A stretch of 46,853 nucleotides of DNA from the NCBI GenBank assembly GCA_949294785.1, contig CASFIQ010000065.1, forward strand, positions 1-46,853, in the 5' to 3' direction. This DNA comes from an uncultured Collinsella sp. GTDB taxonomy: Bacteria; Actinomycetota; Coriobacteriia; Coriobacteriales; Coriobacteriaceae. Shown here piece by piece: positions 31,494-46,853 of the stretch (its first letter is position 1; every line of letters begins with the position of its first letter). The translations under genes and the position numbers were made by a program. The notes beneath the pieces are model-generated. The model saw only the letters and a program-made list of their open reading frames with translations. It was not told the origin of the DNA and ran no database searches.

Positions 31494-32879
31494 TTAGCGC
31501 TCGACATACGTGCCGGGCCGAGCGCCCGTCGGATCGCCGTCGCGGGAGACGAGCTCGCCTGCGACGAACACCAGGCTCGCGCGCCCTTGGACCTCGAACC
31601 CCTCGTATGGGGTGTAGTCGACCGCCTGGTGCTGCGTCGCGGCGCGGATGGTCCAGCGCCGGTGCGGGTCCCACACCGTCACGTCGGCATCGGAGCCCAC
31701 AGCGAGGCGGCCCTTGCGCGGGTACATGTCGAACACGCGAGCCGGGTTCTCGCTCATGAGGCGCATGAGGCCGACCGGCCCCAGCTCATCTCCGAACCGC
31801 GTCGCGACGAGCGCCGGCCGATACTCGATCCCCGGAGCACCGTTGGGGATGCGGGTGAAGTCGCCGCCCGCCTCGGGGCGGCCGCGGTCCTTCTGACCAG
31901 TCATGTTGAACGAGCAGTGATCGGTCGCGATCGTATCGATCTCGCCGGCGAGAAGCGCCGCGGCGAGCGCTTGCACGTCGCGCATCTTGCGCAGCGGCGG
32001 ACTCATGACGTACTTCGCCCCCGCGAAACCGTCCTCTCCTTGCTCGCGATAGCACGCTTCATCCAGCAACAGGTATTGCGGGCAGGTCTCGACGTAGATG
32101 TTCTTCTGGCCGCGGGCGCGCGCGACGCGAACGGCCTCCAGACCAAGCTCGGTCGATAGGTGCACGATGTTCACCGGGGCGTCCCCGGCGAGTCGGGCAA
32201 GATAGAGCAGACGGCTCACCGCATCGGCCTCCGCCTCAGCAGGGCGCGAGAGCGGATGTCCCTCCGGACCCAGGACCCCCCGGGCGAGCATGCGCCGCTG
32301 GAGCGCATCGACGATGTCGCCGTTCTCGCAATGCGTGCATACGATACCGCCCAGGTCGCGCACGGTCTCGAGCACCTCGAGCGTCTCGGAGTCCGTAAGG
32401 CGCAGATGGTCGTAGGCGAGGTAGGTCTTGAAGGACGAGACGCCCCGTTCCCGCATACGGCGCATCTGATTGGGACCGTCGGGCAGCCATTCCGAGATCG
32501 CCATATGAAAGCCGTAGTTCGCGGTGCAGGAGCCGTCGGCGCGCCGATGCCACTCGTCGAGCGCCTCGTCCATGGAGACCCCGCGGTCGGCGGTGGCATA
32601 ATCGACGACGGTCGTGGTGCCCCCTACCGCCGCGGCGCGCGTGCCCGTCTCAAAGCTGTCGGCGGTCCAATCCATGCCCGTCCAGCACTGCAGATGCGTG
32701 TGGGCGTCGATGAAGCCGGGGAACACCCAGCAGCCCGAGACATCGTACGTCTTGCAGGAGGCGGCGTCGGGAGCCTCGATCGAGGGCTCGATACGTGCGA
32801 TCTTCCCATCCTCGAGCGCAAGATCCGCCGAGATAACGCCTTGCGGCGTCACGAGAGAACCGCCTTTGAGAACGATCAT
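31494..32879 (-). CDS. hyuA: Dihydropyrimidinase/hydantoinase (HyuA-like)
   Basis: A 461-residue cyclic amidohydrolase that opens hydantoin- or dihydropyrimidine-type rings. All ligands of the binuclear centre are present: H60 and H62 in DAHTHL, carboxylated K151 in FKTYLAYD, H183 in THCEN, H240 in VHLST and catalytic D320 in ATDHCS. It corresponds to HyuA of the E. coli yge-ygf purine cluster and closes the ygeX-ygeY-ygeW-carbamate kinase-hyuA operon. It would hydrolyse a ureido-ring intermediate of urate breakdown. ATG 32879 has AGGAG five bases upstream. It converges on the lipoprotein gene with only 35 bases between. Confidence 0.92.
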   Translation of the reverse strand: MIVLKGGSLVTPQGVISADLALEDGKIARIEPSIEAPDAASCKTYDVSGCWVFPGFIDAHTHLQCWTGMDWTADSFETGTRAAAVGGTTTVVDYATADRGVSMDEALDEWHRRADGSCTANYGFHMAISEWLPDGPNQMRRMRERGVSSFKTYLAYDHLRLTDSETLEVLETVRDLGGIVCTHCENGDIVDALQRRMLARGVLGPEGHPLSRPAEAEADAVSRLLYLARLAGDAPVNIVHLSTELGLEAVRVARARGQKNIYVETCPQYLLLDEACYREQGEDGFAGAKYVMSPPLRKMRDVQALAAALLAGEIDTIATDHCSFNMTGQKDRGRPEAGGDFTRIPNGAPGIEYRPALVATRFGDELGPVGLMRLMSENPARVFDMYPRKGRLAVGSDADVTVWDPHRRWTIRAATQHQAVDYTPYEGFEVQGRASLVFVAGELVSRDGDPTGARPGTYVER

Positions 32880-32923
32880 GTCGGCTCCTATCAATCAGAC
32901 GGGGGGGACATGCCCCTGCCGCA

Positions 32924-33023: not shown

Positions 33024-33965
33024 TCAGCACTCGATGGCGGTGCCCGTCTTCCCCGCGATGCCGTCGCGGGCGCGCTCGAGCAGCGTGATCAGGGCTCTCC
33101 TGCCCGGACCCGATTCGACGAACTCCACGCACGCCTCCACTTTCGGCTTCATAGAGCCCTCGCCGAACTCGCCGGCGTCGGCGAGCTCGCGCGCCTCGGC
33201 GGCGGTCAGGCGGTCGAGCCAGCGCTCGCGCTCGGTCCCGAAACCCACCGCGACCCTCTCGACCGCGGTCAGGATGATGAGGGTGTCGGCATCGAGCTGC
33301 TCGGCGAGCTTCTCGGCCGCGAAATCCTTGTCGATGACCGCGGCGGCGCCCTTCAGGTGGAAACCGTCGGTGGGCACGACCGGGATGCCGCCCCCGCCGC
33401 AGGCGATCACGATATGGCCTGATTCGAACAGCGTTCGGATGGTGTCGATCTCCACGATCGAGCCGGGACGCGGGCTCGCCACGACGCGGCGATAACCCCG
33501 CTTCTCATCGTAGACGAAATCATAGTCGCGCTCGCGGCGCAGCACCTCGGCCTCGGCCTCGGTCATATACGAGCCGATGGGCTTGGTGGGGTGCTCGAAC
33601 GCCGGGTCATCCGGATCCACCTGCACCTGCGTGAGCACGGTCGCCACGCCCTTGTCGATGCCGCGGCGCAGCATCTCCTCGCGAAGCGCGTTCTGCAGGT
33701 CGTAACCGATGTAGCCCTGACTCATGGCACCGCAGACCGAAAGCGGGCAGGGAATGTAGTGCTCCGGGTCCGACCGCGTGAGCTCGGTCATGGCGTTCGC
33801 GATCATACCCACCTGCGGCCCGTTCCCGTGGACGATGACGACCTCCTTGCCATCTTGGATGAGGTCGACGATCGCGCGGGCGGTGTTCTGCACGGCGGCC
33901 ATCTGCTCGGGCAGGTTGGACCCGAGGGCGTTGCCGCCGAGCGCGATGACGATACGTTGGGACAT
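33024..33965 (-). CDS. arcC: Carbamate kinase
   Basis: A 313-residue carbamate kinase of the amino-acid-kinase fold, making ATP from carbamoyl phosphate and ADP. Motifs: IALGGNALG at the N-terminus, VIVHGNGPQVGM, the family segment PLSVCGAMSQGYIGYDLQ, VVASPRPGSI and CGGGGIPVV, and a C-terminal FGEGSMKPKVEA. It lies 28 bases downstream of ygeW, matching YqeA in E. coli. Here it would recover energy from carbamoyl phosphate released by YgeW (or by the FdrA-DUF1116/DUF2877 system encoded about 10 kb away). ATG 33965 is supported by AGAAAGG. Confidence 0.95.
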   Translation of the reverse strand: MSQRIVIALGGNALGSNLPEQMAAVQNTARAIVDLIQDGKEVVIVHGNGPQVGMIANAMTELTRSDPEHYIPCPLSVCGAMSQGYIGYDLQNALREEMLRRGIDKGVATVLTQVQVDPDDPAFEHPTKPIGSYMTEAEAEVLRRERDYDFVYDEKRGYRRVVASPRPGSIVEIDTIRTLFESGHIVIACGGGGIPVVPTDGFHLKGAAAVIDKDFAAEKLAEQLDADTLIILTAVERVAVGFGTERERWLDRLTAAEARELADAGEFGEGSMKPKVEACVEFVESGPGRRALITLLERARDGIAGKTGTAIEC

Positions 33966-33993
33966 GGCAGTGGCCTTTCTGCTCGCGCGGGCC

Positions 33994-35196
33994 CTACGCC
34001 TGGAACCAGCGGTCCGTGCCGGCGGCCTCGAGCGCACGCAGCGTCGCCACAGGGTCCTTGACCTTCTGCAGGAAGATCATGGCAGCGATGGCATACGGCT
34101 TGTAGCTGGCCTCCTTGTACATGCCCACGCGATGCATATCGAAGACATCGGCCATAACCTCGCCGTGCTCGCAGGAGACGCCGGAGATGTCGGCAGGCAG
34201 CGGGTGCATGTAGATCGTGTCATCGCCGTGCGCGGTCTTTGCCATGAGCTCGCGCGTGGAGCACCAATCATTGTGGGTGGCGTTCTGGGCGAGAAGCTCC
34301 TTCTCCAGCGCCTTGATACCGGCATCGTCGCCTGCGGCGTAGAGGTTGGTGCGCTGCTCCATGGCGGCGTAGGGCGCCCAGCTCTTGGGGATGACGATAT
34401 CGGCGCCCTCGAAGGCCTCTGCCATGGTGCCCACCTGCTTGAAGGTGCAGCCGGACTCGGCGGCGTAGGCACGGGCGGCCTCCACGCGGTCGCCCATGAG
34501 GTCGTAGCCCTCGGGGTGGGCCAGCGTGACGTCCATGCCGAAGCGCGGCAGGAGCGAGATGAGCGACTGCGGGCAGGAAAGCGGCTTGCCGTAGCTCGGA
34601 GAGTACGCCCACGTGACCGCGACCTTCTTGCCGCGGAGGTTCTCGAGGCCGCCGAACTCCTCGATGAGGTAGAGCATATCCGCGGAGGACTGGGTGGGGT
34701 GATCGGAATCGGATTGGAGGGAGATCAGCGTCGGACGGTGATCGAGGACGCCGTCGCGATAGGCCTCGTCGACGGAATCGGCGACCTCGGCCATATAAGC
34801 ATCGCCCTTGCCGATGTACATGTCGTCGCGGATACCGATGACGTCGGCCATGAAGGAGATCATGGTCGCGGTCTCGCGCACGGTCTCGCCATGGGCGATC
34901 TGGCTCTTGCCCTCATCGAGGTCCTGGAGCTGAAGGCCCAGCAGGTTCGTCGCCTTGGAGAACGAGAAGCGCGTGCGGGTGGAGTTGTCGCGGAAGAGCG
35001 AGACGGCCAGACCGGAGTTGAAGATGCGGGGGCTGATGTTGCGCTCGCGGAGGTTGCGCAGCGCCGCCGCCACGGCGTACAGGGCCTTGAGCTCATCGGT
35101 GGTCTTGTCCCAGGTGTGCAGGAAGTCGGCGTTGTACATACCGGAGAAATCGTAGCCGGCGAGCTCGTCGAGAATCGCGGAGAAATCCTTGGCCAT
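33994..35196 (-). CDS. ygeW: YgeW-type putative carbamoyltransferase
   Basis: A 400-residue member of the aspartate/ornithine carbamoyltransferase superfamily, close to E. coli YgeW. The carbamoyl-phosphate motif is S72-T-R-T-R76; HPTQ is at 166-169 and HPLP in YMHPLPAD near the C-terminus. YgeW-type enzymes do not use ornithine or aspartate; in purine-degradation clusters they are thought to phosphorolyse a ureido group, yielding carbamoyl phosphate for carbamate kinase. The gene lies between ygeY and the carbamate kinase gene. ATG 35196 has GGAAAGG upstream. A 12-bp hairpin lies between it and ygeY. Confidence 0.94.
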   Translation of the reverse strand: MAKDFSAILDELAGYDFSGMYNADFLHTWDKTTDELKALYAVAAALRNLRERNISPRIFNSGLAVSLFRDNSTRTRFSFSKATNLLGLQLQDLDEGKSQIAHGETVRETATMISFMADVIGIRDDMYIGKGDAYMAEVADSVDEAYRDGVLDHRPTLISLQSDSDHPTQSSADMLYLIEEFGGLENLRGKKVAVTWAYSPSYGKPLSCPQSLISLLPRFGMDVTLAHPEGYDLMGDRVEAARAYAAESGCTFKQVGTMAEAFEGADIVIPKSWAPYAAMEQRTNLYAAGDDAGIKALEKELLAQNATHNDWCSTRELMAKTAHGDDTIYMHPLPADISGVSCEHGEVMADVFDMHRVGMYKEASYKPYAIAAMIFLQKVKDPVATLRALEAAGTDRWFQA

Positions 35197-35242
35197 GGTG
35201 AATCCTTTCCGGGGCGAGCGCCCCTCGGTGTCGAAGGAGTGT

Positions 35243-35279
35243 CCGGTGCGCGGGGTGGTTGCGCGAACCCGCGCACCGG
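35243..35279 (-). terminator. Hairpin between ygeY and ygeW
   Basis: CCGGTGCGCGGG (35243-35254) and CCCGCGCACCGG (35268-35279) form a perfect 12-bp stem with a 13-base loop and no T-tract. It may attenuate transcription or stabilise the upstream mRNA inside the operon. Confidence 0.5.
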
Positions 35280-35293
35280 CGGAAAGAGAGGGT

Positions 35294-36700
35294 CTACTTG
35301 ATATCGTTGTCGGTCGCGCCCGCGCGGAAGACGGTGACGTCACCGTTCTTCTTCGAGGGGTCGTACAGATTGAGCGCGGCGGTGTAGAGCGCGGCGGCCG
35401 TCACGAGGTCCTGCTTGTAGGTGACCTCGTTGGGCGCGTGCGCCTGGCTCTCGGCACCGGGACCGAAGCCCACGCACGGGATACCGTAGCGCCCCTGGAT
35501 GGAGACGCAGTTGGTGGAGAAGGTCCACTTATCGGTCAGCGGACGTCCGGTGCGCTTATCCATGGACGGGGCGCAGCCGATACGCTCGTCACCGAAGAGG
35601 GCGCGATGCGCGTCGACGAGCGCCTGGACGTGCGCGGCGTTCTCGGCGTTGATCCACGTGGGGAAGTAGGCCTCGGTCTCGTAGACGGTCCCCTTCCAGC
35701 TGGGACGGTCGTACATGTACATCGAGACCTCGACGTCGTCGCCGTACTTCTTGACGGCGGGCAGGTTGCGGATCTCATCCAGGCACGAATCCCAGGTCTC
35801 GCCGGCGGTCATACGGCGGTCGATAGAGATCGCGCAGCTGTCGGCCACGGCGCAACGGGAGGGGCTGGTGTAGAAGACCTGGCTGACGGTGCAGGTTCCG
35901 CGCCCCAGGAACCGGGCGTCCTCGAAGTGCTCGGGATTGTACTTGGGATCGAGCATCTTGACGAGGCCCTTGATGTCGGTCGACTCGTCGCAGCCGTTGT
36001 TGTTGAGGGCGCGGACGTCGGCGATGATGTCTGCCATCTTGTAGATCGCGTTATCGCCGCGATCGGGGGCGGAGCCATGGCAGGAGACGCCGTGGACGTC
36101 CACGCGGATCTCCATGCGGCCGCGATGCCCGCGGTAGATGCCGCCGTCGGTGGGCTCGGTGGAGATCACGAACTCGATCTTCTCCCGTGCGTCCTCGGGA
36201 CCGTCGAAGTACTTGTTGACAAGGTACTGCCAGCACATGCCGTCGCAGTCCTCCTCCTGGACGGAGCCGACGACCATGACCTTGTAGCCCTCGGGGATGA
36301 GGCCCAGGTCCTTCATCATCTTCGCGGCGTAGGTGGCGCTTGCCATGCCGCCCTCCTGGTCGGAGCCGCCACGGCCGTAGATGAGCTCATCGGTCTCGTA
36401 GCCCTCGTAGGGGTCGGCCTCCCAGTTGTCGCGGTTGCCCACGCCCACGGTGTCGATGTGGGAGTCGATGGCGATGATCTTATCGCCCTCGCCCATCCAG
36501 CCGATGACGTTGCCCAGGCCGTCGACCTCGACCTTGTCGAAGCCGAGCTTCTCCATCTCGGCCTTGATGCAGGCGACGACCTCGCCCTCCTCACAGGATT
36601 CGGACGGGTGCGAGATCATCGCGCGCAGAAAGGCGGTCATGTCCGCGCCATAGGCATCGGCGGCCCGCTTGATCTTCTCGTAATCCAACTCGTGTGCCAT
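35294..36700 (-). CDS. ygeY: YgeY-type M20 family hydrolase
   Basis: A 468-residue metal-dependent hydrolase of the M20/ArgE-DapE family, matching YgeY. Metal ligands and base: H81 and D83 in DSHIDTVG, D114 in [10 protein letters not shown], catalytic E149 and E150 in VQEEDCDG, then a ligand in ISTEPTDG, and a distal His in the C-terminal [14 protein letters not shown] dimerisation lid ([19 protein letters not shown]) is present. In the cluster it probably hydrolyses an N-carbamoyl or amide bond of a ureido intermediate. It lies between ygeX and ygeW in one operon. ATG 36700 has an AGAGAGG site. Confidence 0.93.
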
Positions 36701-36778: not shown

Positions 36779-37996
36779 CTAGGCGGTCGGCGCGGGGTAT
36801 GCGCCGTCCCACACGACCTTCCGGTAGTTCTCCGGATCGGTGTCGCCTTCCGTCGAGAACAGCAGAACCGAGCTGTTCTCGTCCAAGCCAATAAGATCAC
36901 GCAGTTCAGCGTAGGTATCGTCGGTCATGATCGTCGTGATGAGACCCGTGCCCACCGCGCCGGACTCGCCGGAGATGACGCGCGGGTCGCCCGCGAGCGG
37001 GGCGCCGAGCACGCGCATGCCCCGAGCCGCGACCCAGTCGGGGCACGACACGAACACGGAAACATGGTTGCGCAGGATGTCCCAGCTGATGGTGTTGGGC
37101 TCACCGCAGGCGAGACCTGCCATGATGGTGGGCATGTCGCCCTCGACGATGCGCGGCTCGCCATCGCCCGCGACAGCACCCCGGTACAGGCACGCCGCCT
37201 CGGAGGCCTCCATCACCACGAAGGTGGGCGGGTTATCGGGGAAGCGGTTGACGAAGTATCCGACCACCGCGCCCGCGAGCGACCCCACGCCCGCCTGGAC
37301 GAACACGTGGCTCGGCCGCTCGATACCCGCCTGAGCGAGCTGCTCGGCGGCCTCGGACGCCATGGTGCCGTAGCCCTCCATGATCCAGCTGGGAATCTCC
37401 TCGTAGCCCTCCCAAGCGGTGTCCTGCACGATGACCCCGTTCTCGCAAGCCTCCGCCTCGGCGGCTGCCATGCGAACGCACTCGTCGTAATTGACCTTTT
37501 CGATGGTGACCTCGGCGCCTTCCTTGGCGATGTTGTCGAAACGGCTCTTCACACTGCCCTTGGGCATGTGGACGACCGCCTTCTGACCGAGCTTGTTCGC
37601 CGCCCACGCCACGCCGCGACCGTGGTTGCCGTCGGTTGCGGTGAAAAACGTCGCCTGGCCGAAGTCGCGCGCGAGCTCCTCGCTCGTGAGGTAGTCGTAG
37701 GTCATCTCGCCGACGGGACGGCCGATCTTGCCGGCGATGTAGTTCGCCATGGCGAAGGATCCGCCGAGCACCTTGAAGGCGTTGAGACCGAAGCGGAAGG
37801 ACTCATCCTTGACCGCGAGCCCTGCGATACCGAGATCGGACGCGAGTGCGTCAAGCCGGGCCAACGGGGTCACGCTATACTGCGGGAAGCTCTGGTGGAA
37901 CGCGCGCGCTTCCCGCACGTTGCCGAGCGACATGATACCCAGATGGGCATCATCGCTGCGCTCCATGGTGTTGGCGATCCATTTGATGGGTTCCAC
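36779..37996 (-). CDS. ygeX: Diaminopropionate ammonia-lyase
   Basis: A 405-residue fold-type II PLP enzyme that converts 2,3-diaminopropionate to pyruvate and two ammonia through an aminoacrylate intermediate. The PLP lysine is K75 in FGLNAFKVLGGS, aligned with K77 of the E. coli enzyme; the active-site aspartate region TATDGNHGRGVAW and a later QAGVGSLAGAVVGYF phosphate loop are present. The start is GTG 37996: GGAGG is five bases upstream and no ATG is near. It is the first gene of the ygeX-ygeY-ygeW-carbamate kinase-hyuA operon and faces the regulator gene at 38325 across an operator-rich gap. Confidence 0.95.
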   Translation of the reverse strand: MEPIKWIANTMERSDDAHLGIMSLGNVREARAFHQSFPQYSVTPLARLDALASDLGIAGLAVKDESFRFGLNAFKVLGGSFAMANYIAGKIGRPVGEMTYDYLTSEELARDFGQATFFTATDGNHGRGVAWAANKLGQKAVVHMPKGSVKSRFDNIAKEGAEVTIEKVNYDECVRMAAAEAEACENGVIVQDTAWEGYEEIPSWIMEGYGTMASEAAEQLAQAGIERPSHVFVQAGVGSLAGAVVGYFVNRFPDNPPTFVVMEASEAACLYRGAVAGDGEPRIVEGDMPTIMAGLACGEPNTISWDILRNHVSVFVSCPDWVAARGMRVLGAPLAGDPRVISGESGAVGTGLITTIMTDDTYAELRDLIGLDENSSVLLFSTEGDTDPENYRKVVWDGAYPAPTA

Positions 37997-38324: not shown

Positions 38325-38984
38325 ATGACCTCGAACCAGATCGCGTTCTACCGAAGCCTCGCCCGCAGCCTGGCGCAGCAGTTCGGCCCCAATTGCGAGG
38401 TCGTGGTGCACGACCTCGAGGCGAGCGACCTCGACCATTCCATCGTCGCGATCGAGAACGGCCATATCAGCGGCCGCAAGCTTGGCGACGGCGCATCGCA
38501 TGTCGTGCTGGAAGCCATGCACGCCGACCCCGCATCCCTCAAGGACCGCGAGCCCTACCTCACCAAGACCTCCGACGGCAAGCTACTCAAATCGACGACC
38601 GTCTTCATCCGCGACGACGACGGGCGCGCCACGGGCGTGCTCGCCATCAACTACGACATCACCGTCATGACGGCGTTCAACAACATGCTCTCCTCCTTCG
38701 TGGGGACAGGCGCGGGGAACGGGCGCGAACCCGAGCCCATCACCCGCAGCGTCGCCGGGCTCCTCGAGGACCTCTTCCGCGAGAGCGAGCAGCTTATCGG
38801 CAAACCGGCGGCGCTCATGACCAAGGACGAGCGCGTGCGCGCGATTGGCTACCTCGATCGCCGCGGCACGTTCTTGATCAGCAAGTCGAGCGAGCGCGCC
38901 TGCGACTTCTTCGGCATCTCGAAGTACTCGTTCTACTCCTATCTGAACGAGGCGAAGGCGGCGGCGGAGACGCAGGCGGGCTGA
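38325..38984 (+). CDS. YheO/DauR-like PAS and HTH transcriptional regulator
   Basis: A 219-residue regulator with an N-terminal YheO-like PAS domain (about 8-120: FGPNCEVVVHDLEASDLDHSIVAIENGHISGR, STTVFIRDDDGRATGVLAINYD) and a C-terminal DauR-type helix-turn-helix (about 165-215: GTFLISKSSERACDFFGISKYSFYSYL). This family includes DauR and other regulators of amino acid and purine catabolism. It is divergent from ygeX and probably binds the palindromes between them, sensing a pathway intermediate through the PAS domain. ATG 38325 has AAGGAG seven bases upstream. A paralogue lies at 44049. Confidence 0.88.
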   Translation: MTSNQIAFYRSLARSLAQQFGPNCEVVVHDLEASDLDHSIVAIENGHISGRKLGDGASHVVLEAMHADPASLKDREPYLTKTSDGKLLKSTTVFIRDDDGRATGVLAINYDITVMTAFNNMLSSFVGTGAGNGREPEPITRSVAGLLEDLFRESEQLIGKPAALMTKDERVRAIGYLDRRGTFLISKSSERACDFFGISKYSFYSYLNEAKAAAETQAG

Positions 38985-39167: not shown

Positions 39168-40874
39168 CTACGCTCCCAAAAGATACGGGTAGCGATCGCG
39201 TACGGCGGCGATGACGCGCGCCAGATCCTCGGGGATGCCGCTCGTCGCCGGATCGTCCACGTTCGCGAACACGGTCTTGCCCTGATGGCGCACGACGAAG
39301 CTGCCGTCCTCGCGGCGAAGGAACCCGTCGTTCTCGCTCGCCTCCATATCGGCAGCGGTCCAGAACACGGTGAGCTTGTTCTTGTAGGGACGCCCCTCGT
39401 ACGGGCAGAACACGGCGCAGTTGCCGCACTCGTTGCACATACCGTCCACGTGCAGCACCTGCTTGCGCTTGAAGCCGGGAACGTCGATCGTGACGTTGGC
39501 GCGGTTGGGGCACACGACCTCGCATACGCGGCACGCCAGGCAATCGAGCAAGGGGAGCTGGGCGGAAAGCTGCCGCTTGGACTGGCCGTGCTCGGGACGG
39601 CGGTACAGATCGCCCGAGACGGCGGCCTCGTCGAGCGCCGCGACCGCCTGGACATCGACGGTGCGCTCGCCTGGATCCTCGACCGTACCGACCGCCTTGG
39701 CCATACGGCTGAAGCGCTCGTACCCGCACGGACGCAGAAGCGAGGTCGCCACGGTGACGGGCCACACGCCCGCATGGTAGAGATCGGCGATGTTGCGCTC
39801 GTCGGCACCCGCGGAGAACGAGACGTGGATCTTGCCCGCGAACTCGGCGGCGATGCGATCGACGACGGCGATGGCAAGCGGGAACAGCGCCACACCCGAC
39901 ATGTACATCTGGTCTGCCGGGAGCTCGTGGAAGAGCACCCTCACCGGCAGCGTGTTGCACACCTTGACCCCGAAGGAGCGGCCGCAGGCGTGCGCGCGGT
40001 CCATAAGGCGATGGAGCATGCCGACGGCATCCTCCCATTTGAGGTCCGCATCGAAGCTCTCGCGGCTGAGCGACAGCGCCTCGTATCCCAGGGCATCAAG
40101 GCGCTCGCGCACGAAATCATAGCCCGTGAGCGTGGGATTCAGCTTGACGCAGGTGTTGAGGCCCTTCTCCTCCAAGAGGTAGGCGACGATGCCCTCGATC
40201 TCATCGGCGGGGCAGCCATGCATGGTCGAAAGCGTCATGGAGGTGCTCACCGCAGGATCGATGCCTTCGACGAAGGCGCGATCGACCCGCTCGAAGCGGT
40301 CCAGGTTCGCAAGCGTCCAAGCTCGGCACTCATCCCACGCCGCGGTGCCGCTCGCGTCCTTCATGCCCTCGATGAAGGCGTCCACCTTCGGGCTCTTGAT
40401 GCCGGCAAGGTCGTAGCCGACCGACATGTTGAAGACGAATCCGTCATCAGCGCCCAGCTCGAGCTCGCGGGAGAGGAGCTTGCAGGCGAACCAGCCCTTG
40501 ATGTACTCGCCAAGCGCATCCTCGCAGGTGAGCTCTGTGGACCACTCGCAGTTATAGCACACATCGCCCGGGGCGATGCAGGGTTTGGGGATGCAGGCGG
40601 TCATCTCGGCGCCATCCATAACCTGGACGGTCTTGAGCTCGAAGAAGCGCCCGCCCGCCACGTAGCCGGCGACGAGGTTCTGCGCGAGCTGCGTGTTGGG
40701 ACCCGCCGCCGGACCGAACGGCATCTCGATGCGCTCGTCGTTGAGCGCGATACCGCTACCCGGCTCGAAGCGCTCGATGCGCTTGACGCCGAAAACGCTC
40801 CCCTGCTCCTGATATTCCGTCAGCGCCCAATCCATGAGCTGCGCAAACGGCATCGGTTTCATGATATCGCTCAT
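39168..40874 (-). CDS. ygfK: Short YgfK-type oxidoreductase lacking the FAD/NAD module
   Basis: A 568-residue relative of E. coli YgfK (about 1030 residues), a component of the anaerobic purine-degradation cluster. The N-terminal DHOD-like TIM barrel is intact (MSDIMKPMPFAQLM, GPAAGPNTQLAQNL, MTLSTMHGCPADEIE, CVKLNPTLTGYDFV, MYMSGVALFPLAI). The C-terminal ferredoxin part has two 4Fe-4S motifs (CLACRVCEVVCPNRANV and CNECGNCAVFCPYEG) and the conserved ending YPYLLG. The GltD-like FAD/NAD(P)H module that lies between them in E. coli is missing. ATG 40874 has GGAGG seven bases upstream. Electrons would have to come from a separate donor such as ferredoxin. Confidence 0.88.
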   Translation of the reverse strand: MSDIMKPMPFAQLMDWALTEYQEQGSVFGVKRIERFEPGSGIALNDERIEMPFGPAAGPNTQLAQNLVAGYVAGGRFFELKTVQVMDGAEMTACIPKPCIAPGDVCYNCEWSTELTCEDALGEYIKGWFACKLLSRELELGADDGFVFNMSVGYDLAGIKSPKVDAFIEGMKDASGTAAWDECRAWTLANLDRFERVDRAFVEGIDPAVSTSMTLSTMHGCPADEIEGIVAYLLEEKGLNTCVKLNPTLTGYDFVRERLDALGYEALSLSRESFDADLKWEDAVGMLHRLMDRAHACGRSFGVKVCNTLPVRVLFHELPADQMYMSGVALFPLAIAVVDRIAAEFAGKIHVSFSAGADERNIADLYHAGVWPVTVATSLLRPCGYERFSRMAKAVGTVEDPGERTVDVQAVAALDEAAVSGDLYRRPEHGQSKRQLSAQLPLLDCLACRVCEVVCPNRANVTIDVPGFKRKQVLHVDGMCNECGNCAVFCPYEGRPYKNKLTVFWTAADMEASENDGFLRREDGSFVVRHQGKTVFANVDDPATSGIPEDLARVIAAVRDRYPYLLGA

Positions 40875-40950: not shown

Positions 40951-42303
40951 CTAGTAGGCCCTTCCGTTCAAGTCGCCCCAGAGTTTTTTGGCCTGCTCGA
41001 GTGTCCACGCGTTGATGCGCTCCTCATCCAGGTCGACGAACGCGCGATCGCGGTAGAGCACCCGCCCGTTCACGATGGTGGTGCGGCAGCTCCTGCCCAT
41101 CATGCCGAACAGCATGTGCCCGTCGATGTTCTCGTCGGAGAACGGCGTGAAACGCGGATAATCCATCACGATGACGTCGGCGACGGCTCCGGGGCGGAGC
41201 GCGCCGATCTCGCGTCCGAAGTACCCGCTCGCCATGCGGGGGTTGTTCTGGAACAGCATGGCCATATCCTCCGACCAGCCCACGTTGGGCATGGCGGCGT
41301 TATGGCGCTGGATGATCAGGAAGACCTTCAGGCTCTCCAGCATGTCGTGCGTGTGGGCATCCGTACCCAGGCACACGTCGATACCGCGGCGGAAGAACTC
41401 GAGCACCGGTGCGCATCCCACCGCGTTGCCCATGTTGGACTCCGGGTTGTTCACGATATGGGTCCCGGTCTCGCGGATGATGTCCATCTCGGCGGGCGTC
41501 ACATGGATGCAGTGCCCGAGCATCGTCTTCGGACCAAGAAGCCCATGCTGCAGGAGCCGCTCGACCGGGGCGATCCCGCCACGGTTGGCACGCGAATCCC
41601 ACACGTCGTTCATACCCTCGCACACATGGATGTGGAAACCGGTGAGCCCGTCGTTCGCCTCGGCCATCTTATCCATCGTCTCATCGGAGAGCGTGAACGT
41701 GGCATGCCCGCCGAACATCGCGGCGATCATCCCGTTGCCCGCCTTCTGCTCGCGCGCAGCCCAGCGAGCGAACTCGGCGTTTTCGGCAATCGCCTGATCG
41801 CGCTTCTCAACCCCGTCGCGGTCGGACGTCTCGTAGCACAGGCACGCGCGGATACCGCACTCCTGGGCAACATCCTTGATCGCGAACAGGCTGCCGGGGA
41901 CCTCGGCGAAACTCGCATGATGGTCGAAGATGGTCGTCACGCCGTTGCGAATCGACTCCAGGATCGTGGCATAGGCGCTGGCGCGCGTGCCGTCGAGCGT
42001 GAGCTTTCGATCGATCGCCCACCACTGCTGCTCCAGGTTCTCCAGGAAGTTCGTGGGGTTGCAGCCCTTGATGGAGAGCCCGCGTGCGAGCCCGGAATAG
42101 ATATGCGTGTGGCAGTTCACCAAGCCCGGCATGATGACGCCGCCGCGCGCATCCACGAACTCGGCATCCGCGAAGCGCTCCTCGAGCTCCTCCTGGCCGC
42201 CCACCGCGACGATCTGCTCGCCATCGATGGCCACCGCGCCGCGCTCGATATACGGCTGCTCGGGATCGCGCGTGATGACGGGACCGTTTCCAACCAACAG
42301 CAT
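40951..42303 (-). CDS. ssnA: SsnA-type amidohydrolase
   Basis: A 450-residue amidohydrolase-superfamily enzyme matching SsnA of the purine cluster. Metal ligands are visible in NCHTHIYSG (H65 and H67), FHIHVCEG, MLGHCIHV and the catalytic GTDAHTHD. Relatives deaminate or open nitrogen heterocycles (chlorohydrolase/cytosine-deaminase group). It lies between the purine permease and ygfK genes in one operon, so it probably acts on a reduced urate-derived ring. ATG 42303 is preceded by AAAGGAG. Confidence 0.92.
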   Translation of the reverse strand: MLLVGNGPVITRDPEQPYIERGAVAIDGEQIVAVGGQEELEERFADAEFVDARGGVIMPGLVNCHTHIYSGLARGLSIKGCNPTNFLENLEQQWWAIDRKLTLDGTRASAYATILESIRNGVTTIFDHHASFAEVPGSLFAIKDVAQECGIRACLCYETSDRDGVEKRDQAIAENAEFARWAAREQKAGNGMIAAMFGGHATFTLSDETMDKMAEANDGLTGFHIHVCEGMNDVWDSRANRGGIAPVERLLQHGLLGPKTMLGHCIHVTPAEMDIIRETGTHIVNNPESNMGNAVGCAPVLEFFRRGIDVCLGTDAHTHDMLESLKVFLIIQRHNAAMPNVGWSEDMAMLFQNNPRMASGYFGREIGALRPGAVADVIVMDYPRFTPFSDENIDGHMLFGMMGRSCRTTIVNGRVLYRDRAFVDLDEERINAWTLEQAKKLWGDLNGRAY

Positions 42304-42376: not shown

Positions 42377-43759
42377 CTACTCGACCTCGGGCTCCTGACG
42401 CGCCGCCTCTGCCTCGGCGATCGCCTCGGCGTCCTTGGGCAGCACCAGGTTCAAGATGATCGCCGCGATGGCGGAGACCACGAGCTCCGAGGCGCCGAAG
42501 ATGCTCGAGACCCACTCCGGCATGCCGGGGCCCGCGAGGCACCCGGACACGTGGTAGATACCCAGGCCGAGCGCGATGGAGGTGCCCACGATGAGCTTCT
42601 TGCGGTCGGTGAAACCGCCCTCGATGATGAGCTCCAGACCGGAAACGGTGATCGTGGCGAACACGCCGATGACCGCACCGCCGATGACCGGCTGAGGAAT
42701 GCAGGTAAGCAGCGCCGCGAGCTTGGGGAAGAAGCCGGCGACGATGAAGACCAGGCACGCGAAGGTGAAGACGAGGCGGTTCTTGACGCCGTTGGAGATG
42801 ATGATGCCGGTGTTCTGCTCGTAGGTGGACTGCGGGATGGCGCCGATGAACGCGCCCAGGACCGACATGATGCCGAGCGACACGATGCCTCCGGTGTACT
42901 CACGGCTGGTGGGGATTCGATGCTCCACGGCGTTGGTGGTCATGGCCACACCGCCCATGTTCTGCAGGCAGTTCACCACGTATACGATCGCCGCCGTCGC
43001 CATCGCCGCCGGGGCGAAGTCGAGCTCGAAGTGCAGCACGCCCGGAAGCGCCACCCAGCCGGCGTCGGCGAGGTTCGTCAGGTCGAGCATGCCGAAGGGG
43101 ATGGAGACGATAGTGCCCGCGATGATTCCGAACAGAAGCGATCCCTGGCTCAAGATGCCCTTGCAGAAGTTCGTGAAGATGAATGTGATCACCAGCGTGA
43201 TCAGCGCGATGAGCCAGTTGATCGGGCTGCCGAACATCGCGGTGCCCTCGCCGCCCGCCATCCAGCGAATCGCAATCGGATAGAGCGACAGGCCGATCGT
43301 GAAGATCACGGTTCCGGTTACGACGGCTGGGAACAGGTGCTTGATATATTTGATGAAGAGGCCCACCACGATGGCGACGATACCTCCCACCACCTCGGCG
43401 CCGAGAATCGTGCCGATGCCGAAGTCCGCACCGATGGTCTGGAAGACGGGAACATACGCGAAGGCCGCACCCATGATGATGGGCAGGCCCGTTCCGATAC
43501 GCCCGAACAGCGGGAACAGCTGGATGAGCGACGCGATTCCCGTCATGATGAGCGAGGCTTGAATGAGCAGCGTCTCATCGGCGGGCGACAGGTCGCACAC
43601 GCCGGCGATGATCATCGCCGGCGCGACCACACCCATGGCGGATGCCAAGACATGCTGCAGCCCGAGCGGAATGATCTCCGCAATCGTAGGTTTTCCCTCC
43701 CAGGTGAACAACGGGTTCTCCGCGGTTTTCGCGCCCGCCGCCTCCAGATCCTTGCTCAT
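42377..43759 (-). CDS. NCS2-family purine (xanthine/urate) permease
   Basis: A 460-residue membrane permease of the nucleobase-ascorbate (NCS2) family, with about 14 helices. The N-terminal GLQHVLASAMGVVAPAMIIA carries the conserved QH motif of TM1; the TM-10 region reads QNMGGVAMTTNAVEHR, where XanQ/UacT have QNxGxxxxTG/R-like signatures, so the last positions deviate. TM8-like regions and IPQPVIGGAVIGVFATI are also typical. It resembles XanQ/UacT/PbuX and probably imports urate or xanthine. It heads the permease-ssnA-ygfK operon and is divergent from the second PAS/HTH regulator. ATG 43759 has AGAAGGGAG upstream. Confidence 0.92.
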   Translation of the reverse strand: MSKDLEAAGAKTAENPLFTWEGKPTIAEIIPLGLQHVLASAMGVVAPAMIIAGVCDLSPADETLLIQASLIMTGIASLIQLFPLFGRIGTGLPIIMGAAFAYVPVFQTIGADFGIGTILGAEVVGGIVAIVVGLFIKYIKHLFPAVVTGTVIFTIGLSLYPIAIRWMAGGEGTAMFGSPINWLIALITLVITFIFTNFCKGILSQGSLLFGIIAGTIVSIPFGMLDLTNLADAGWVALPGVLHFELDFAPAAMATAAIVYVVNCLQNMGGVAMTTNAVEHRIPTSREYTGGIVSLGIMSVLGAFIGAIPQSTYEQNTGIIISNGVKNRLVFTFACLVFIVAGFFPKLAALLTCIPQPVIGGAVIGVFATITVSGLELIIEGGFTDRKKLIVGTSIALGLGIYHVSGCLAGPGMPEWVSSIFGASELVVSAIAAIILNLVLPKDAEAIAEAEAARQEPEVE

Positions 43760-43982: not shown

Positions 43983-44010
43983 TTGACGTTTCGCTCTTGA
44001 ATGATAAATT
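43983..44010 (+). promoter_or_regulatory. Candidate promoter of the second PAS/HTH regulator
   Basis: TTGACG (43983-43988), a 16-base spacer and TAAATT (44005-44010) form a plausible sigma-70 promoter ending about 38 bases before the ATG. Confidence 0.5.
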
Positions 44011-44048
44011 ATTATCGTCAGTCGAACCCCATCGAATGGAGGGGTCCC

Positions 44049-44702
44049 ATGGATCCAGCTGTCGAGCGATTTGTACCCATCGTCGATTTCCTGGGGCGCG
44101 CTCTCGGTCGCAACGCGGAGATCGCGCTGCACGACTTCTCCGACCTCGAGCACTCCCTCGTCGCGATCGCCAACGGACACATCTCGGGGCGAAGCGTCGG
44201 CGCACCGGCGACGGATTTCGCGCTCAAGATTCTGAATGACTACGCGCCCGAGCGCGGTGACGTTGTAGCGGGCTACATAAGCTATAGCGTCGACAATCGC
44301 CCGCTCAGGTCTGCCTCCTATATCATCCGCGGAGAGAACCGCACCGCCGGCATGCTCTGCATCAACGTCGACGTCTCGCAGCTCGAGCTCCTCGAGCACC
44401 TGGCGCACGACATCCTTGAGGGATACGCTCCGGCAAACAACCAGGAGCGCTCGCGCAGCACGTCGGAGCGCCTTACGTCCTCGTCCGACGACCTGGTTAG
44501 AAATGTCGTGCAGGCGCACGCGCTCGAGCGCGGCAAGCCCGTGGAGAAGCTCGATCAGGCGGACCGCATCGATATCGTTCGGCAGCTCAATGACAACGGC
44601 GTGTTCCTGCTCAAGGGCGCGGTGGCAGAAGTCGCCCAGGCGATGGGGATCTCCGAGCCAAGCGTCTACCGTTACCTGCAGAAGGTCAAGCGCGAAGGAT
44701 AG
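44049..44702 (+). CDS. Second YheO/DauR-like PAS and HTH regulator
   Basis: A 217-residue paralogue of the regulator at 38325. The PAS part (about 5-115) has IVDFLGRALGRNAEIALHDF and LVAIANGHISGRS, and the C-terminal DauR-type helix-turn-helix has GVFLLKGAVAEVAQAMGISEPSVYRYLQKVK, which is a better canonical HTH than in the first copy. It is divergent from the permease-ssnA-ygfK operon and presumably controls it, perhaps with the first regulator. ATG 44049 is chosen for its GGAGGGG site; the frame is open 16 codons further upstream but unsupported. RidA follows on the same strand after 109 bases. Confidence 0.87.
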   Translation: MDPAVERFVPIVDFLGRALGRNAEIALHDFSDLEHSLVAIANGHISGRSVGAPATDFALKILNDYAPERGDVVAGYISYSVDNRPLRSASYIIRGENRTAGMLCINVDVSQLELLEHLAHDILEGYAPANNQERSRSTSERLTSSSDDLVRNVVQAHALERGKPVEKLDQADRIDIVRQLNDNGVFLLKGAVAEVAQAMGISEPSVYRYLQKVKREG

Positions 44703-44811
44703 CGCCCCGGCAGGCTCCGCTTTTCACCTCCGGCCATCCATACCCGGTAATCCGTCGATCGGACAGCATCTCCGACCGACTTCACATGCGATCGAAAGGA
44801 TCTGAAGAACC

Positions 44812-45189
44812 ATGGACAAGCACGTCATCGCCTCCGACAAGGCCCCTGCGGCGCTCGGCCCCTACTCCGCCGGCATCAAGACCGGCAACCTGGTGTTCCT
44901 CTCCGGCCAGCTCGGCCTCGTGCCCGCGACCGGCGAGCTTGCCGAGGGCGTTGTCGCCCAGGCCGAGCAAGCGCTGAAAAACGTCGAGGCACTCCTCACC
45001 GCCGCCGGCGCAAGCTTCGATAACGTGGTGAAGACCACGGTCTTCCTGGCCGACATCGCCGATTTCAACGCGGTGAACGAGGTCTACGGCAGCCGCTTCA
45101 CCGAGCCTTACCCCGCGCGCAGCGCCGTGCAGGTGGGCGCGCTGCCCAAGGGCGCGCTCGTCGAGATCGAGTGCGTCGTCGCGCTGTAG
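44812..45189 (+). CDS. ridA: RidA-family enamine/imine deaminase
   Basis: A 125-residue RidA/YjgF/UK114 protein, usually trimeric, that hydrolyses reactive enamines/imines such as 2-aminoacrylate to 2-ketoacids. The N-terminal [23 protein letters not shown] and the C-terminal [20 protein letters not shown], with the conserved catalytic arginine in PARSAV, are diagnostic. Because YgeX releases aminoacrylate from diaminopropionate, placing ridA at the end of this island makes chemical sense. ATG 44812 follows AAAGGA at a rather long spacing. It may be co-transcribed with the regulator upstream and ends in palindromic element E3. Confidence 0.94.
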
Positions 45190-45544: not shown

Positions 45545-46853
45545 TTAGACCTCCGCGTAGACGTCCTTGAGCTTGAGGAGGTGCTGGTAACGAGCCATAG
45601 CGGCCTCCTCGTTGGCCTTGAAGAGCGCGTCGACCTGGTCCTGCGGCAGGACGCGGCTGAGCGAGGCGTAGCGGGCCTCGTTCATCAGGAAGTCCTGATA
45701 GCCGCCCTTCGGCTCCTTGGAGTCGAGGGTGAACTTCTTGCCGACCTCGGCCGCCGGGTTGCAGCGGAAGAGGTTCCAGTAGCCGCAGTCCACGGCCTTC
45801 TTCATCTCGGCCTGGCAGTTCGTCATGCCGCCCTTGATGCTGTGCATCTCGCAGGGGGCGTAGGCGATGATGAGGGACGGGCCGTGGTAGGCCTCGGCCT
45901 CGGTGATGGCCTTGATGGTCTGGGCCGGGTTCGCGCCCATGGCGATCTGGGCGACGTAGACGTAGCCGTAGGTCATGGCGAGCTCGGCCAGAGCCTTGCT
46001 CTTTATCTCCTTGCCGGCCGCGGCGAACTGCGCCACCTGGCCGATGTTGGAGGCCTTCGACGCCTGGCCGCCGGTGTTGGAGTAGACCTCGGTGTCGAAC
46101 ACGAACACGTTCACGTCCTCGCCGGAGGCCAGGACATGGTCGAGTCCGCCGTAGCCGATGTCGTAGGCCCAGCCGTCGCCGCCCATGATCCACACGGACT
46201 TCTTGTTCAGGTAATCCTTCTTGGAGAGGATCTCCTCCGCGAGAGCGCAGGCCGCGCAGTCGCAGTACTTCTTGCCGGCGGCCTTCAGCTTGGCGCCGTG
46301 GGCCGCAAACTTCTCGTCGACGCAGTTTATGAGCTCATCCACAGTGCAGATGTTCTCTTCCAGCGCGGCGATATAGGCCTTGGCGGCTTCGCCGTTGGCG
46401 TTGCCGTCGTTATAGGTGTCGAGCCACTTCTGAGCCGCTTCCTTCAGCTCTGCCGCGCACCAGTCGACGGCGATGAGCTCGCGGGTCTTGGCGGCGAGGT
46501 CGTCGCGGATCTTCTTCTGGCCGAGGTACAGGCCCAGGCCGTGCTCGGCGTTATCCTCGAACAGGCTGTTGACCCAGGCGGGACCCTTGCCTTCCTTGTT
46601 GACGGTGTAGGGGCTCGTCGCGGCCGGGCCGCCCCAGATGGACGAGCAGCCGGTGGCGTTCGAGACGATCATGTGGTCGCCGAAGAGCTGGGTGATGAGC
46701 CTGGCGTAGCTGGTCTCGGCGCAGCCGGCGCAGGAGCCGGAGAACTCGAGCATGGGCTGCTTGAACTGGCTGCCCTTCACGGTGTTGTCCTGCATGTCCT
46801 TCTTCTCGGAGACCTTCTCGGTCATGTAGGTCCAGACTTCCTGCTGAGGCATC
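45545..46853 (-). CDS. nifJ: Pyruvate:ferredoxin (flavodoxin) oxidoreductase, C-terminal part
   Basis: The C-terminal 435 residues of a single-chain pyruvate:ferredoxin oxidoreductase, which oxidises pyruvate and CoA to acetyl-CoA and CO2 with reduction of ferredoxin. The visible part has the proximal 4Fe-4S cysteines (SGSCAGCAETSYARL, NATGCSSIWGG) and the TPP-binding region from MGGDGWAYDIGYGGLDHV to VFDTEVYSNTGGQASK. The last ligand cysteine is probably that in APCEMHSIKGG. The N-terminal and ferredoxin domains lie beyond the right edge. It could oxidise pyruvate from YgeX and supply reduced ferredoxin. The gene ends in element E4. Confidence 0.95.
   Translation of the reverse strand, partial: MPQQEVWTYMTEKVSEKKDMQDNTVKGSQFKQPMLEFSGSCAGCAETSYARLITQLFGDHMIVSNATGCSSIWGGPAATSPYTVNKEGKGPAWVNSLFEDNAEHGLGLYLGQKKIRDDLAAKTRELIAVDWCAAELKEAAQKWLDTYNDGNANGEAAKAYIAALEENICTVDELINCVDEKFAAHGAKLKAAGKKYCDCAACALAEEILSKKDYLNKKSVWIMGGDGWAYDIGYGGLDHVLASGEDVNVFVFDTEVYSNTGGQASKASNIGQVAQFAAAGKEIKSKALAELAMTYGYVYVAQIAMGANPAQTIKAITEAEAYHGPSLIIAYAPCEMHSIKGGMTNCQAEMKKAVDCGYWNLFRCNPAAEVGKKFTLDSKEPKGGYQDFLMNEARYASLSRVLPQDQVDALFKANEEAAMARYQHLLKLKDVYAEV

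Follow-up and report, generated by a model that had tools for sequence, protein, structure and literature searches.

A short form of YgfK without the NAD(P)H module in Coriobacteriaceae: a likely ferredoxin-driven yanthine reductase

Background

Where does a YgfK protein take its electrons from if the part that binds FAD and NAD(P) is missing, and is such a protein functional at all? This question is raised by a ygfK gene of a gut bacterium, in the DNA stretch analysed here (the window, 46,853 nucleotides), whose product joins the N-terminal barrel directly to the C-terminal iron-sulfur domain. YgfK, which acts in anaerobic uric-acid breakdown, was flagged in 2008 within a selenium-dependent molybdenum hydroxylase gene set and was shown in 2025 to be a yanthine reductase (PMC12507026). 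The initial annotation of this locus spoke of urate reduction, which has to be corrected: it is yanthine (2,8-dioxopurine) rather than urate that YgfK reduces (PMC12507026), and the window's genus lacks XdhD, the pathway's first enzyme, for the conversion of urate into yanthine. In a limited literature search YgfK, UacX and an F420-type substitute were found described, but neither a YgfK without the NAD(P)H module nor a YgfK pathway without XdhD. From the sequence comparisons given below, we consider it probable that the short gene encodes a functional, ferredoxin-driven yanthine reductase of the YgfK family; the identity of donor and substrate and the path of the electrons are inferred.

Results and discussion

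Domain content and deletion junction

The reading frame is open throughout its 568 codons, from the ATG at position 40874, preceded by the ribosome-binding site AGGAGG, to the stop at 39168. When searched with the TIGR03315 profile (1012 positions), the window protein was matched in positions 1–443, the N-terminal barrel, and 889–1012, the C-terminal 2[4Fe-4S] region, but not in the gap between. The missing 445 positions, 444–888, are the Fer4_20 and FAD/NAD(P) module, and the polypeptide has no FAD domain; in long YgfKs Fer4_20 and Pyr_redox_2, a module with two clusters, FAD and NAD(P), fill this part. The score of 705.4 bits is below the curated cut-off for the full-length family (835.3 bits). 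E. coli K-12 YgfK (b2878, 1032 aa) is 46% identical to the window protein over 562 common columns, and the residues invariant in 32 short and long YgfKs are found in the window protein as well. Thus, the initial observation that the barrel and the double 4Fe-4S region are kept while the middle module is gone was fully supported.

An AlphaFold2 model of the short protein is confident (pLDDT 88.6, pTM 0.92). In a fold search against the PDB, dihydropyrimidine dehydrogenase (DPD) was the best match (E about 1e-9), followed by DHODH; the TM-scores to the DPD matches are low (0.34–0.37), so that the match identifies the fold without confirming how the domains are arranged.

At the junction, the segment AVSGDLYRRPEHGQSKRQLSAQ still aligns to the linker of long YgfKs, and LPLLDC corresponds to the first residues of the lost module (VPLIDC FTAPCRSGCPI... 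in the long forms); the join is at or just past C445, and the sequence continues with LACRVCEVVCPNRAN. The first cluster motif at this scar has the canonical CxxCxxCxxxCP spacing. Hence a single internal stretch, comprising the Fer4_20, FAD and NAD(P)-binding module, is deleted, starting inside the module, and the remnant LPLLDC argues that the short form arose by deletion from a long ancestor. The clean join and intact frame described initially hold, whereas its place needed a small correction, to at or just after C445.

Gene neighbourhood

The short ygfK is co-localised with ssnA and ygeX/Y/W, and furthermore with yqeA and hyuA (Table 1). In each of the genus's three genomes, the permease is flanked by a RidA-like gene together with another regulator of the PAS_6 type (window 44001-45189; L184:13225-14343; L186:5718-6838); RidA could detoxify aminoacrylate made by YgeX. 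The partial gene at the contig end encodes pyruvate:ferredoxin oxidoreductase (PFOR). Its adjacency was rejected as evidence for ferredoxin use, since PFOR is not beside the cluster in one of the other genomes of the genus (G004).

Table 1. Features of the short ygfK locus and ferredoxin genes at related loci (positions refer to the window unless a locus is given).
Feature	Position	Strand	Evidence
hyuA, D-hydantoinase/dihydropyrimidinase	31494..32894	-	TIGR02033, 492.9 bits, above cut-off
yqeA/arcC-type carbamate kinase	33024..34037	-	TIGR00746, 368.8 bits, above cut-off
ygeW, knotted carbamoyltransferase	33994..35343	-	TIGR03316, 700.3 bits, above cut-off
ygeY, M20 hydrolase	35294..36700	-	NF009555, 591.5 bits, above cut-off
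ygeX, diaminopropionate ammonia-lyase	36779..37996	-	TIGR03528, 619.8 bits, above cut-off
YheO-like PAS_6/HTH regulator, divergent from ygeX	38325..38984	+	PF08348, PF13309
short ygfK, 568 aa: FMN-type DHOD-like barrel and C-terminal 2[4Fe-4S] domain, without Fer4_20/FAD/NAD(P) module	39168..40874	-	TIGR03315 match, AlphaFold2, PDB fold
deletion scar LPLLDC/LACRVCE: LPLLDC (start of lost module) fused to dicluster motif	39519..39557	-	alignment with long forms and E. coli YgfK
ssnA, aminohydrolase opening the reduced purine	40951..42303	-	NF005540, 621.8 bits, cut-off 444
NCS2 xanthine/uracil-type permease, candidate oxopurine importer	42377..43759	-	PF00860; TIGR03173, 356 bits, under cut-off 414
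RidA-like gene; in G001 and G004 also upstream of the permease	44812..45189	+	gene call and sequence
PFOR, C-terminal part, cut by contig end; possible reduced-ferredoxin source	45545..46852	-	TIGR02176, E = 1.3e-148
small 2[4Fe-4S] ferredoxin ORF between ygfK and xdhD	L189:16202-16429	+	
small 2[4Fe-4S] ferredoxin ORF between ygfK and xdhD	L187:14612-14932	-	
small 2[4Fe-4S] ferredoxin ORF between ygfK and xdhD (example)	L098:13004-13300	+	

Distribution and origin of the short form

Within the window's order, a YgfK match was obtained in 104 of 397 genomes, and five of these 104 carry the short form. Nearly all remaining YgfKs of the order are long (about 1000–1070 aa), with few fragments or split frames. 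At two loci (L046 in G030 and L089 in G166) a long ygfK seems to be broken into two frames that overlap or adjoin, through a frameshift or sequencing error. The short form is found also in Blautia, other Lachnospiraceae, a Tissierellia bacterium, Clostridium psychrophilum and others; in our sample of Clostridia it accounts for 6 of 14 YgfK-positive genomes.

In a tree built from the barrel and dicluster columns, the short forms of Coriobacteriaceae constitute one clade (100/100), nested in the long forms of Coriobacteriia (100/95), while C. psychrophilum YgfK is placed among other long forms (100/100). Well-supported branches require the form to have changed four times or more; the precise count of losses is unsure because several rows from Clostridia are long-branched. 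A single short clade was not rejected in the first tree (86 rows, smaller sample; AU p = 0.084), but was rejected in a second one with more short and long forms from Clostridia and the E. coli sequence (AU p = 3.4e-5). Thus, the short forms of Coriobacteriaceae are a clade, but all short forms together are not. Module remnants in the short forms of Coriobacteriaceae and of some Clostridia speak for losses rather than regains. From these sequence comparisons, the module was probably lost repeatedly in the YgfK family, and the short forms probably arose several times, a point missing from the initial annotation.

A maintained gene, probably with a non-NAD(P)H donor

The removal of a whole functional module might be taken for decay or for a collapse during assembly, the more so as the source is a fragmented metagenome-assembled genome (223 contigs, 86% complete) which is also without XdhD. 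However, the same deletion, with an identical deletion point in all five genomes, is present in four independent assemblies (G001, G004, G024 and Collinsella sp. An2, here G009), the proteins of which are 74–87% identical to the window protein (86–87% in G001 and G004, which belong to the same genus, and 74% in G024). Across the short ygfK genes of Coriobacteriaceae dN/dS is 0.04–0.28 for the whole gene, with the barrel and the Fe-S part behaving alike, and the lowest values occur within the window's genus (0.04–0.12). A full-length YgfK homologue was searched for in this genus and not found. Together with the ribosome-binding site, the open frame and the intact neighbours, the independent assemblies and the purifying selection refute decay and assembly collapse, so that a remnant or artefact is exceedingly unlikely and the earlier view of a clean truncation rather than a decayed pseudogene stands.

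A more serious alternative would be a two-subunit NAD(P)H enzyme resembling PreT-PreA, in which a GltD/PreT-like protein from another locus would stand in for the lost module. Reductases from other parts of the genome could indeed partner the short YgfK in trans, and the window's own genome has both a stand-alone 608-aa match to exactly positions 445–888 (C129) and, on contig C46, a GltD-like fragment. But genes of the C129 type occur also in the long-form genomes G010, G014, G015, G017, G021, G040 and G048, adjoin a gene with 2Fe-2S/4Fe-4S, hydrogenase-like sequence, and an equivalent of that size over 445–888 is not listed for the short-form genomes G001, G009 and G024. In a genome-wide comparison, GltD-like genes of 470–510 aa were found in genomes with a long, a short or no YgfK; they do not track the short form. 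When the lost-module profile was run against all ORFs of eight short-form loci with flanks of up to 10 kb (L090, L091, L092, L131, L134, L142, L148 and L159), no stand-alone GltD-like relative was detected. The suggested co-occurrence of the short form with such a gene is therefore not borne out, and a dedicated reductase subunit appears improbable. The other half of that suggestion, a donor of the ferredoxin or flavodoxin type in place of NAD(P)H, is most likely judged by the sequence data. As a separate observation, the C129 gene and its neighbour (L038:3636-7207 in the window's genome) encode the GltD-like protein and a 583-aa FeFe hydrogenase-like iron-sulfur protein, a pair that is present in several relatives independent of the form of YgfK.

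Ferredoxin as the likely electron donor

In G009 and G024, a small ORF with two CxxCxxCxxxC motifs, characteristic of a 2[4Fe-4S] ferredoxin, separates the short ygfK from xdhD; the ferredoxin of the An2 (G009) cluster has 76 aa. Many Coriobacteriia with the long form have such an ORF at the equivalent place. As it is found also beside long YgfKs, this ferredoxin is probably older than the deletion, and for the same reason it may serve XdhD and not YgfK. The XdhD of the cluster is without a fused FAD domain (TIGR03311 type). In the window's genus there is no such ferredoxin gene beside ygfK, so that the donor there would have to be a housekeeping ferredoxin or flavodoxin. Blautia sp. Marseille-P3087 has a short YgfK as well; directly past its xdhD, a gene (L092:14288-14914) codes for a 209-aa protein with four CxxCxxCxxxC-type motifs, a further candidate electron carrier.

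The mechanism preferred by us is as follows. Electrons would reach the short YgfK directly from a carrier of low potential, reduced 2[4Fe-4S] ferredoxin being the most likely one. The two C-terminal clusters would relay them to the FMN of the barrel, from where they would go on to the purine ring; hydrolysis by SsnA would then pull the reaction forward. In evolutionary terms, the ferredoxin may first have served XdhD, YgfK would have gained the ability to use it, and its own NAD(P)H module would then have become dispensable. E. coli YgfK alone, without SsnA, gave no detectable product, possibly owing to unfavourable thermodynamics according to the authors (PMC12507026); a donor of lower potential would presumably help here.

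Absence of XdhD and the substrate in the window's genus

XdhD is present in 101 of the 104 YgfK-positive genomes of the order; only the three genomes of the window's genus (G000, the window's own, G001 and G004) are without it. Neither PF02738 nor the XdhD of Collinsella sp. An2 as queries gave a match in these three, two of which are 99% complete. The region following ygfK is unbroken in each of these genomes and is occupied by other genes, while HyuA, YqeA, YgeW, YgeY and YgeX are all kept. Full-strength SelD matches (366–408 bits) are missing in the same three genomes and present in G009, G024, G014, G021 and G010. However, C. psychrophilum and G017 have XdhD although they lack a strong SelD match, therefore the absence of SelD alone proves little. 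A loss of all molybdenum enzymes was rejected, as the C-terminal domain of MoaA (PF06463) is found in all three. In another genome, G002, two contigs (L195:1-192 and L196:1-192) each open with the final 62 residues of XdhD (74% identity) and then diverge, one of them carrying an AlsT-like gene like the one that follows ygfK in G001 and G004; in G002, XdhD may have been there, may have been duplicated, or may have been lost where the assembly breaks.

The short YgfK could have changed its substrate and reduce urate, or another oxopurine, directly, in which case the molybdenum/selenium enzyme would no longer be needed. The joint lack of XdhD and SelD, the retention of all later genes and the purifying selection still acting on YgfK would fit such a change. 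Yet few conserved positions set the XdhD-less clade apart from its short relatives with XdhD (F45N and L250T are among the strongest), too few to read a new substrate from the residues, and this speaks for an unchanged one; we regard direct urate reduction as unlikely. Since XdhD is missing, the substrate would be imported yanthine, and uptake of yanthine by the window's genus is the simplest reading. E. coli secretes yanthine, as Enterococcus probably does, and the compound occurs in human serum (PMC12507026). That the genus has become a specialised yanthine consumer, which lost XdhD and SelD, combines a ferredoxin-driven YgfK with the full downstream pathway and lives on yanthine leaked by urate-reducing neighbours, is a serious possibility, with the balance tipped slightly against it. 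If true, yanthine use would be self-balanced on paper: the two electrons consumed by YgfK would be matched by the two that PFOR yields in oxidising the product pyruvate. Genomes of the G000, G001 and G004 type are thus candidate yanthine consumers, in which the question of cross-feeding is directly testable.

Comparison with known systems

By its barrel, its C-terminal dicluster and its neighbourhood (ssnA, ygeW/X/Y, hyuA and yqeA), the window protein resembles E. coli YgfK (TIGR03315/IPR017701), from which it differs in lacking positions 444–888 (Fer4_20, FAD, NAD(P)). With PreA of PreT-PreA and domains IV–V of mammalian DPD it shares the fold, DPD giving the best PDB matches, but it reaches only 22 bits with the PreA model NF006183 (cut-off 335), and no PreT-like neighbour was detected at the eight scanned short-form loci.

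Closer parallels in electron supply are two FAD-less proteins. PydAc of Clostridium chromiireducens takes its electrons from reduced ferredoxin or methyl viologen (PMC7332683); it likewise consists of barrel and dicluster only, comes from a strict anaerobe in which the NAD(P)H module was lost, and carries out the reductive dearomatisation of an N-heterocycle, but it belongs to another family and another gene cluster, and its substrate is uracil. UacX, the replacement of YgfK in the cluster of Clostridioides difficile, was assayed with reduced methyl viologen, with ferredoxin proposed as its donor (PMC12507026). The same step is proposed for it, and it is an FMN barrel without FAD domain and with a donor other than NAD(P)H. 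However, UacX is a PydA homologue of PF01180, whereas the window protein is a YgfK by sequence, and PF01180 (DHO_dh) did not match it even at E <= 10.

The change from NAD(P)H to ferredoxin is therefore known already, being published for uracil reduction by PydAc and proposed for UacX, but we found none described within the YgfK family, where it appears to have occurred repeatedly, in gut and other anaerobes. If so, the database label 'YgfK' does not reveal the electron donor, which matters to models of urate degradation in the gut and to engineered uricolytic strains. The best explanation for the short YgfK is that it would work like PydAc and UacX, yet belongs to neither of their families.
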